A stretch of DNA of 64,000 bases from Dehalogenimonas alkenigignens (GTDB lineage Bacteria; Chloroflexota; Dehalococcoidia; Dehalococcoidales; Dehalococcoidaceae): positions 865,684-929,683 of the forward strand of contig NZ_KQ758903.1 of assembly GCF_001466665.1 (NCBI RefSeq), written 5' to 3'. Shown here one piece after another: positions 11,257 through 42,152 of this stretch (the stretch's first letter is position 1; every line of letters starts with the position of its first letter). Under the pieces are notes generated by a model. It was given only the letters and a program-made list of their open reading frames with translations, had not been told where the DNA came from and ran no database searches. Position numbers and translations under genes: made by a program.

Positions 11257-12054
11257 ATGGCTGGGGTGTTGAAATTCGTCCTGTCGTTAGCCGCCGTCGT
11301 CGCTCTCGCCCTCACCGGCGCGGGCTGCGGCCCGGCGGAAACTCCCGCCACCGAGTCTCCGTTTACCGCGTCGGCTTCGCAGCCTCCATCGGCATCGACA
11401 ACGACCAGCCTGCCGCCGCCGGCTACCGCGGCGGCCCAAACCAGAGTTGTGCTGGCCGAGATGTTCACCGGGGACTGGTGAGGCTACTGTCCGTTCGCGT
11501 CGCGAGCGATCGAAAAACACGCCGCCGAGCTTGGGCCGGGAAAACTCCTGGTGCTGCAGTACCATTCGGGGGACAAATACGCCACCCCGGCCACCGAAGC
11601 TAAAGCCGCCGAATACGGCGTGAGGGGCTTCCCGTCAATCTATTTCGATGGCGGTAATCCAGTCATCGGCGCCGGCAGCGAACTCTCCGCCTACAACGCC
11701 CAGACATCCAAAATCGCCGCCGCGCTGGCTAAACCGCCGGCGGTCGCCCTGAGCGCTACCGTCAGTTTTTCCGGGGGCATTACCGTGACAGCTGCCGCAA
11801 CCAACACTGGGTCAAGTACTGTTTCCGGCTTGAAGCTATATGTCGTCATCTATGAGGATCTGGGCACCGCAGAACACCACTACACGGTGCGCGACGTTCT
11901 TTCTCCGGTCGCTATCGTGAGCCTGGCTTCCGGCGCCGTTCAACAATTTTCAGTCAAATCTAGCTACGGCGGCAGCCAGAGTAATCTGCAGGCCGTTGTT
12001 TTCATCAAATCCGCTTCCGGTGAAGTGCTGCAGGTGGCTCTGGCCGGCAAATAA
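11257..12054 (+). CDS. Thioredoxin-like lipoprotein with in-frame UGA (predicted selenocysteine, Sec75)
   Basis: Read through the TGA at 11479-11481, this is one 265-residue protein. It has a signal peptide with lipobox (LTGAGC), a Ser/Thr/Pro/Ala linker, a thioredoxin-like domain with the active site TGDW-U-GYCP, a cis-Pro loop (GFPSIYF), and an Ig-like beta domain. Family members normally have C-x-x-C in this position, so the UGA replaces the first redox Cys exactly. Frame and protein similarity continue on both sides. A stem-loop with a G-first apical loop starts 10 nt after the UGA. A simple reading would call a 74-residue truncated lipoprotein plus a separate downstream gene. Start choice is uncertain: GTG at 11266 has better spacing from GAGGG. 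Likely role: extracytoplasmic thiol/disulfide exchange. Confidence 0.8.
11479..11508 (+). promoter_or_regulatory. Candidate bacterial SECIS after UGA75
   Basis: After the UGA at 11479-11481, CGTTCGC (11492-11498) pairs with GCGAGCG (11502-11508) across a three-base loop GTC. The apical loop begins 17 nt after the UGA and has G in first position, which fits the bSECIS model used for selenoprotein mRNAs (loop 16-37 nt downstream, G among the first two loop bases). Pairing was judged by eye. Confidence 0.6.
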
Positions 12055-39613: not shown

Positions 39614-39637
39614 AAAAAACCAGAAGACTAGCTTCTG
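39614..39637 (-). terminator. Attenuator hairpin of the TPP riboswitch
   Basis: On the minus strand CAGAAG-CTAGT-CTTCTG (39637-39621) is followed by GTTTTTT (39620-39614). It lies between the aptamer and the first gene, so it should terminate transcription when TPP is bound. Confidence 0.75.
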
Positions 39638-39643
39638 TTGGAG

Positions 39644-39735
39644 TGTGGTACTTCCCTTCGCTCGAATTACCGAGACCAGGTTCCAAGGGTCTTCCCGGTG
39701 TTGCCGGGAACTCTCAGCCTTTCAGCTCCCCCAGT
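39644..39735 (-). ncRNA. TPP riboswitch (THI element) aptamer
   Basis: Read on the minus strand, the conserved thi-box parts occur in order: GGGGGAGCTGAAAGGCTGAGA, a variable stem CCCGG..CCGGG, ACCCTTGGAACCTGGTC, GGTAA, and GCGAAGGGAAGT. CTGAGA and ACCCTT with GAACCTG form the pyrimidine-sensing and pyrophosphate-sensing helices. It controls the AIR synthase-like gene and thiE. Confidence 0.95.
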
Positions 39736-39942
39736 AACGATATTGAATTGTAGTCATAATAACAATTACTTGAGCGCGGGGGCAAATCCCGTCGAGAAAA
39801 TAGGGGCTGGCTTTCATCGGAACAAGTAGTTTTACGGATTGTTTAAATTTGTGGATGTAGTATCCTATAAATACACAGCTAAATACACAGCCGTGCTATC
39901 CTGAGACGGTGACAAACGATGTATAATAGTGGAGGTGTGAAT

Positions 39943-41557: not shown

Positions 41558-42079
41558 CTACAGCATCCCCTCTGCCTGGCGCGGCGAGCCGTCCCGGACG
41601 AAGGTGATGCGGATGCGGGCGCCCTTTTCCAGCCCGGACAGAGCCTGGTCGAGGTCGGCCGCGCTGGATACTGTCGCAGTGTCGATGCGGGTGATAATGT
41701 CGCCGGGTTTCAACCCGGCAGCGGCGGCCGGTAAACCGGGTTTGACCGCCCCGATATAGGCACCGGAAACGGCCGGCAGGCCGCGGGAGGCAGTGATCTT
41801 GCGGGCGTCGGCCACCGAGGCTCCGAATGGAGGAGCGGCGGCGTTGCGGGCCTGGGCCAGGTAGTGCTCCAGTTGCTCCGGGTCGAAACCGACCACCAGA
41901 TTGCCGTCTATGTCGGTCACCGGCACTGCCAGACGTCCGGTGCGCCGGGCTAAATCCTGGGCAGCGGCGGCGTCACGGGAAACGTCAATTTCGGTGAAGG
42001 GGATACCGCGTTGTGAAAGGAACCCTTTCACTGTATGGCAATGGGGTCAGGTCTGGGTAGTGTAGACAGTTACTTTCAT
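41558..42079 (-). CDS. Glutaredoxin-PDZ fusion with in-frame UGA (predicted selenocysteine, Sec11)
   Basis: From the ATG at 42079 (GAGGTG 8 nt upstream) the frame reads MKVTVYTTQT-UGA-PHCHTVKGF and continues open to 41558, 173 residues. Residues 1-75 are a glutaredoxin/NrdH-like domain with VPVTDIDGNLVVGFD, where the usual active site is C-P-x-C; the UGA takes the first Cys. Residues ~95-170 form a PDZ domain (VSGAYIGAVKPGLPAAAAG in part, LKPGDIITRIDTATVSSAADL in part). A perfect 8-bp stem-loop follows. Without Sec decoding one would call only a start-less 157-residue fragment. A soluble thiol-oxidoreductase that recognises protein C-termini is a reasonable guess. Confidence 0.82.
42013..42049 (-). 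promoter_or_regulatory. Candidate bacterial SECIS after UGA11
   Basis: On the minus strand, 15 nt after the UGA (42049-42047), GTGAAAGG pairs perfectly with CCTTTCAC around the loop GTT (42031-42013). The loop begins 23 nt after the UGA with G in first position, fitting the bSECIS model. Confidence 0.65.
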
Positions 42080-42152
42080 AGCCAGCTCACCTCTATATCA
42101 GTATAACCCCGGAATCCCGCGGATCAAAAAGTCGTCGCCGCTCCGAGTTTGA

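Follow-up and report, generated by a model that had tools for sequence, protein, structure and literature searches.

A gene on the reverse strand of the Dehalogenimonas alkenigignens genome very probably encodes a selenocysteine-decoded enzyme in which a glutaredoxin (Grx) domain is followed by a PDZ domain, and the incorporation of selenocysteine (Sec) at its codon 11 is near-certain on computational grounds. The Sec-glutaredoxin half belongs to a known and verified family, and its fusion to a PDZ domain is a new layout relative to the available portions of the selenoprotein tables checked. The window, that is, the whole stretch of 64,000 nucleotides that was analysed, contains this gene with the features collected in Table 1.

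Gene and predicted protein

The reading frame begins with an ATG (42079-42077) and continues through ten sense codons (MKVTVYTTQT) to a TGA (42049-42047), after which PHC and an open frame follow. A preliminary description, made from the letters alone, had given the ATG, the GAGGTG motif, the ten codons, the UGA, the PHC and the open frame to 41558, and all of these are correct to the base. Its placement of the UGA at the first Cys position of the glutaredoxin C-P-x-C was borne out by the sequence and by homologues that have Cys there.

When the UGA is read through, the translated protein matches the Pfam glutaredoxin family PF00462 at 1e-16 (61 bits against a cut-off of 22.9) and, over residues 87-169, PDZ_2 at 3e-14. 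The U-P-H-C motif corresponds to the U-x-x-C within a glutaredoxin domain by which Sec-glutaredoxins are recognized. The best PDB sequence match of the Grx half was cGrx1 of C. oremlandii (2.6e-18), and the AlphaFold2 model, which is confident at the level of single residues (pLDDT 91), gave, in Foldseek, a superposition of this half on cGrx1 with an rmsd of 1.2 over 73 columns at about 50% identity, while the C-terminal half resembled the PDZ domains of DegQ, DegP and HtrA; the pTM of 0.57 is low, and the relative orientation of the two domains is not fixed by the model. In a 62-row alignment, the invariant residues of the Grx part were Sec/Cys11, Cys14, V52-P53-V54 and G64-F65. Neither a signal peptide nor a protease domain is apparent in the translation, and the protein is probably cytosolic because of the former.

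Table 1. Features of the Grx–PDZ gene, in positions of the window
Feature	Position	Strand	Remarks
Predicted Grx–PDZ selenoprotein gene	41558..42079	-	173 aa including Sec11; TAG stop ending at 41558; UGA orthologues in all 8 genomes of the genus
UGA codon 11, predicted Sec, first position of U-P-H-C	42047..42049	-	column is Cys in 23 homologues
Cys14 codon, resolving Cys of UxxC	42038..42040	-	invariant across the 62-row alignment
Predicted bacterial SECIS element (8-bp stem, GUU loop)	42013..42031	-	starts 15 nt after the UGA
Shine-Dalgarno GAGGTG	42088..42093	-	ATG follows after 8 nt; all 8 genus members share GAGG
Promoter-like TTGATC-16-TATACT	42100..42127	-	recognized by consensus only; all 8 genus members share TATACT
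Glutaredoxin domain, residues 1-80	41840..42079	-	Pfam PF00462, residues 3-62; model and PDB match to cGrx1
HtrA-type PDZ domain, residues 87-169	41573..41821	-	Pfam PF13180; DegQ/DegP/HtrA matches

Elsewhere in the window, a TPP riboswitch was recognized at 39636-39742 on the reverse strand (60.9 bits), upstream of AIR-synthase-like and ThiE-like genes.

Distribution and Sec/Cys exchange

All eight genomes of the genus were found to carry the gene with one internal TGA, at 70-97% identity to the window protein, and neither the Grx–PDZ gene nor SelB was found in the three genomes of a sister genus in the same family. Matches occurred in 43 of 294 genomes of the class and in 38 of the 350 genomes of a phylum sample. 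The preliminary description had regarded the fusion as rare; it is no single oddity but phylum-wide in Chloroflexota, where 67 full-length proteins were counted (44 UGA forms and 23 Cys forms). The exchange always concerns column 11, at which homologues have UGA or a Cys codon and never the UAA or UAG that the description had named as evidence against its prediction. The best tree contains ten changes between the UGA and Cys states, three of which are forced by well-supported branches; therefore, Sec and Cys have been swapped repeatedly. A Cys form (L150) and a Sec form (L156), for example, are sisters with full support.

Two genomes of one genus (L128:4675-5192 and L129:3028-3549) share an apparent one-base disruption of the frame in the Grx part, with the UGA and the SECIS hairpin kept, which may be a recent loss common to both or a site of frameshifting. 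No intact fusion was found in plasmid and phage collections, nor was a full fusion found in a scan of genome contigs with a single query protein, the hits of which were for the most part HtrA and other PDZ proteins. One locus that resembled a fusion by coverage (L020) was rejected, as it reads as an HtrA-like protein. Additionally, Candidatus Chlorohelix allophototropha (G546; loci L175:3986-4531 on NZ_CP128401.1 and L167:5504-6040) carries a Sec fusion on another contig together with a Cys glutaredoxin and a PDZ protein encoded on a plasmid as two adjacent genes.

Both Pfam domains were present in 62 of the 62 aligned members, which come from several Chloroflexota families, and the PDZ part has invariant residues of its own (G86, G106, D127 and R162). 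This conservation speaks against an unlikely reading in which the protein is a plain known Sec-glutaredoxin and the PDZ domain an appendage without a targeting role. Such a reading can draw on the match of the Grx half to the verified Sec-Grx family, on the stand-alone Sec-Grx of Desulfobacterota with the same hairpin geometry, and on the division of the Chlorohelix plasmid copy into separate Grx and PDZ genes, although even in that copy the two genes have stayed adjacent.

Origin of the fusion and relation to known selenoproteins

In sampled Desulfobacterota (297 genomes) and Actinomycetota (346 genomes), matches with E up to 1e-25 covered essentially the glutaredoxin domain only; many of them have an internal TGA, and one actinobacterial match reaches position 107. 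In a stand-alone Sec-Grx of Desulfobacterota (L185), the hairpin GCGAAGGAGTTCCTTTCGC likewise lies 15 nt from the UGA, a likeness that suggests a shared SECIS origin. Since stand-alone Sec-Grx proteins occur elsewhere, one of them with the same hairpin geometry, the fusion most likely arose when a Sec-Grx that already existed was joined to a PDZ domain of HtrA type.

Sec-glutaredoxins with UxxC, such as those of Geobacter and Clostridium/Alkaliphilus oremlandii, stand among the experimentally verified families in the available portions of two surveys (PMC13188914, PMC9312934). The Grx–PDZ protein shares with this family (PF00462; cGrx1, 7c10 and 7c12) the fold of glutaredoxins, a Sec that comes first in UxxC and a hairpin right after the UGA. 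However, Sec-Grx is catalogued as a glutaredoxin alone, whereas here a PDZ domain is added in the same chain, and the protein falls outside that single-domain definition.

The same portions list, as a predicted selenoprotein, a Trx7/PDZ protein with CxxU (PMC13188914, PMC9312934). Its model NF041199 likewise joins a redox domain to PDZ, but the redox domain is Thioredoxin_7, the motif is CxxU rather than UxxC, and the model has 390 positions; the window protein scored 44.2 bits against its cut-off of 300, through the PDZ part only. UXX-star (NF041212) and its relatives are also glutaredoxin-like with Sec first in the active site, from which the present protein differs by its second active-site Cys and the following PDZ domain, and its score was 53.9 bits against a cut-off of 66. 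HtrA, DegP and DegQ possess a PDZ domain of the same bacterial type; these are proteases, while in the Grx–PDZ protein, with no protease domain or apparent signal peptide, PDZ is joined to a redox domain. NCBIfam contains no model of the fusion; YruB glutaredoxin is the sole model among the listed matches whose cut-off was exceeded. The preliminary description could not recall the layout from known selenoprotein lists, and in fact it is absent from the available portions of the 2022 and 2026 prokaryotic selenoprotein tables (PMC9312934, PMC13188914); literature searches retrieved no description of it.

The UGA codon and the downstream hairpin

A mechanical list of open reading frames shows only 41558-42031 with a GTG start, which would agree with the UGA being an ordinary stop, so that the locus would be a pseudogene or would encode a 157-aa protein, devoid of the active site, from the in-frame GTG at 42031. 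This is extremely improbable. The UGA is conserved across 44 homologues, in the Cys forms the same ATG opens an uninterrupted frame, and, in the eight species, codons 1-16 and the active-site motif are conserved at the protein level, with synonymous sites drifting as usual before and after the UGA. In addition, the SECIS stem opens with the GTG at 42031, and as many other UGA forms have GCG in its place, this codon is no conserved start.

The predicted readthrough of the UGA as Sec is accompanied by a hairpin, GTGAAAGG-GTT-CCTTTCAC in the DNA and GUGAAAGG-GUU-CCUUUCAC as RNA, in which eight of eight base pairs are formed; the perfect 8-bp stem-loop with loop GUU, placed by the preliminary description 15 nt after the UGA, is accurate in every detail. 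The bacterial SECIS model demands a loop of 3-9 nt, a stem of 4-16 bp, a G within the first two positions of the loop, a distance of 16-37 nt between the UGA and the loop and a folding energy of -7.5 kcal/mol or lower (PMC13188914). The hairpin agrees with all of these constraints, having a 3-nt loop (GUU), an 8-bp stem, 23 nt from UGA to loop and -8.5 kcal/mol when folded alone. Over 63 nt the energy is -14 kcal/mol (z = -1.7), so that the fold of the single sequence is not exceptional by itself, and when the peptide is recoded at random with synonymous codons, about 4% of the versions fold equally well; a lone hairpin would thus be weak evidence.

The hairpin is considered more than chance because its codons are nearly frozen at synonymous sites within the genus and because it tracks the UGA or Cys state across the 67 homologues. 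Within the genus, the share of synonymous codon differences is 8% for codons 17-23, whereas it reaches 51-54% for codons 24-173 (permutation p = 5e-5) and 42% and 55% for two short stretches before the hairpin codons. A perfect stem of at least 7 bp, beginning 14 to 16 nt after the UGA and with G in the loop, was found in 38 of the 44 UGA forms versus one of the 23 Cys forms, in which the stem is misplaced, starting 25 nt away; these are per-sequence counts, and since a tree-aware test on supported branches had too few independent pairs and was not significant, the statistics rest on such counts and on the strong qualitative contrast.

The hairpin occurs in two registers. One has 8 bp and the loop GUU; the other has 7 bp and a loop of 4 nt (AGUU, for instance) and uses different codons, which encode a slightly different peptide (KEFLR). 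Compensatory changes were observed from UA to CG in 13 sequences and from AU to GC or CG in nine. In the fixed 8-bp register, 26 cells had changed on both sides, exceeding 500 of 500 shuffles, and pairing was higher than in any slid version. From these comparisons of sequences, the hairpin downstream of codon 11 is predicted to be a SECIS element. It also marks the protein sequence, as UGA forms mostly have the peptide KEFLSQ or KGFLSQ and Cys forms often have KRFLSER in its place.

Selenocysteine machinery of the host genome

The host genome (1.85 Mb, a single contig, 99.9% complete) contains selC, selD, selA and selB in one operon-like block (C1:448759-453491), so that absence of Sec machinery, named in the preliminary description as grounds for abandoning its prediction, is excluded. 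SelB scored 345 bits against a cut-off of 242 and tRNA-Sec 71 bits, with which ARAGORN agrees, and SelA and SelD were recognized from translated open reading frames between SelB and tRNA-Sec. The selD gene itself has an in-frame UGA in an SGUAAK motif (L073:7011-7085, reverse strand), its start lying upstream of the standard-code reading frame; SGUAAK matches the UxxK motif listed for SelD in the available portion of a published prokaryotic selenoprotein table. SelD is thus a predicted selenoprotein of the host genome and serves as an internal positive control. For D. alkenigignens IP3-3T, a selC gene, genes for Sec synthesis, SelB, and selD and formate dehydrogenase genes that contain a UGA have been described (PMC4918011). 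SelB was found in 22 of the 24 tested class genomes with UGA forms; the two exceptions, the fragmented assemblies G049 (69% complete) and G050 (94% complete, in 470 contigs), are probably due to assembly gaps.

Decoding of the UGA as Trp, or as Cys by near-cognate decoding, without a Sec system would fit the Cys of the homologues but deserves hardly any credence, given that the hairpin accompanies UGA and disappears in the Cys forms, that its geometry is that of a bacterial SECIS, that SelB and tRNA-Sec are present, and that SelD has UGA at a known Sec site.

The preliminary description took the Grx–PDZ protein for a second selenoprotein of the genome, a view that is too narrow considering SelD, the formate dehydrogenase described for a relative (PMC4918011) and another candidate in the window. 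That candidate is a lipoprotein-like reading frame (11257-12054, forward strand) with TGA at 11479-11481 in the context FTGDW-U-GYCPFASRA; it shows weak Omp28/thioredoxin-like matches and no clean SECIS hairpin by simple folding.

Proposed function and genomic neighbourhood

In the proposed mechanism, the UGA at codon 11 would be decoded as Sec by the SelB and tRNA-Sec of the genome itself, as directed by the hairpin. Sec11 would then attack an oxidised substrate, which may be a disulfide, a sulfenic acid or a mixed disulfide, and Cys14 would resolve the resulting selenylsulfide. The PDZ domain would probably hold the enzyme on C-terminal tails or exposed strands of particular partners, raising its local activity; this targeting step, with the ligand binding that it implies, is regarded as moderately probable.

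Glutathione-binding glutaredoxins usually carry T-V-P and a GG motif, at the sites of which the Grx–PDZ sequence has G/A-V-P and GFD. No match to the glutathione synthetase family PF02955 (GSH-S_ATP) was found in the host genome, which makes glutathione synthesis by that route unlikely and glutathione dependence doubtful. An electron donor of thioredoxin-reductase type is therefore plausible, in view of both this missing match and the motifs. Selenoprotein MsrA is said, in work of Kim 2011, to be a known partner of the C. oremlandii Sec-Grx; such a pairing was rejected here, as the MsrA of the host genome has no internal UGA.

Outside the genus, a dnaK, dnaJ or clpB gene on the same strand is adjacent in about 11 of some 60 loci from several families, neighbouring genes having been named by eye from their translations, and in some cases an FmdB-like gene comes after these chaperone genes. 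At other loci the neighbour is a rubrerythrin-like or desulfoferrodoxin-like gene, and the split Grx and PDZ genes of the Chlorohelix plasmid adjoin rhodanese, TusA, DsrE and TrxB in a sulfur-transfer cluster. No chaperone neighbours were found in the window's own genus, and the chaperone hint may for this reason not apply to the present gene; the only conserved partner in the genus is a downstream GNAT gene (six of eight loci). These neighbourhoods would point, though not consistently and in no case within the window's genus, to the repair of thiols or the handling of sulfur under stress, and the enzyme may act beside chaperones to keep proteins in a reduced or repaired state. It is conceivable, but decidedly doubtful, that the fusion constitutes a phylum-wide redox-targeting module in which PDZ docks a Sec or Cys glutaredoxin on DnaK, DnaJ, ClpB or their clients, reducing misoxidised cytosolic proteins during refolding, with the Sec and Cys forms swapped repeatedly.

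Implications

Gene callers that stop at UGA miss or truncate Grx–PDZ genes. The predicted protein adds a Sec domain architecture that is absent from the available portions of the two tables checked and that has at least 44 Sec members in many Chloroflexota genera, including organohalide-respiring bacteria. A PDZ-tethered glutaredoxin would help to find out how a small thiol enzyme selects the substrates on which it acts, and natural Sec/Cys pairs, such as the sister forms mentioned above, would make it testable within one protein what Sec gains over Cys.
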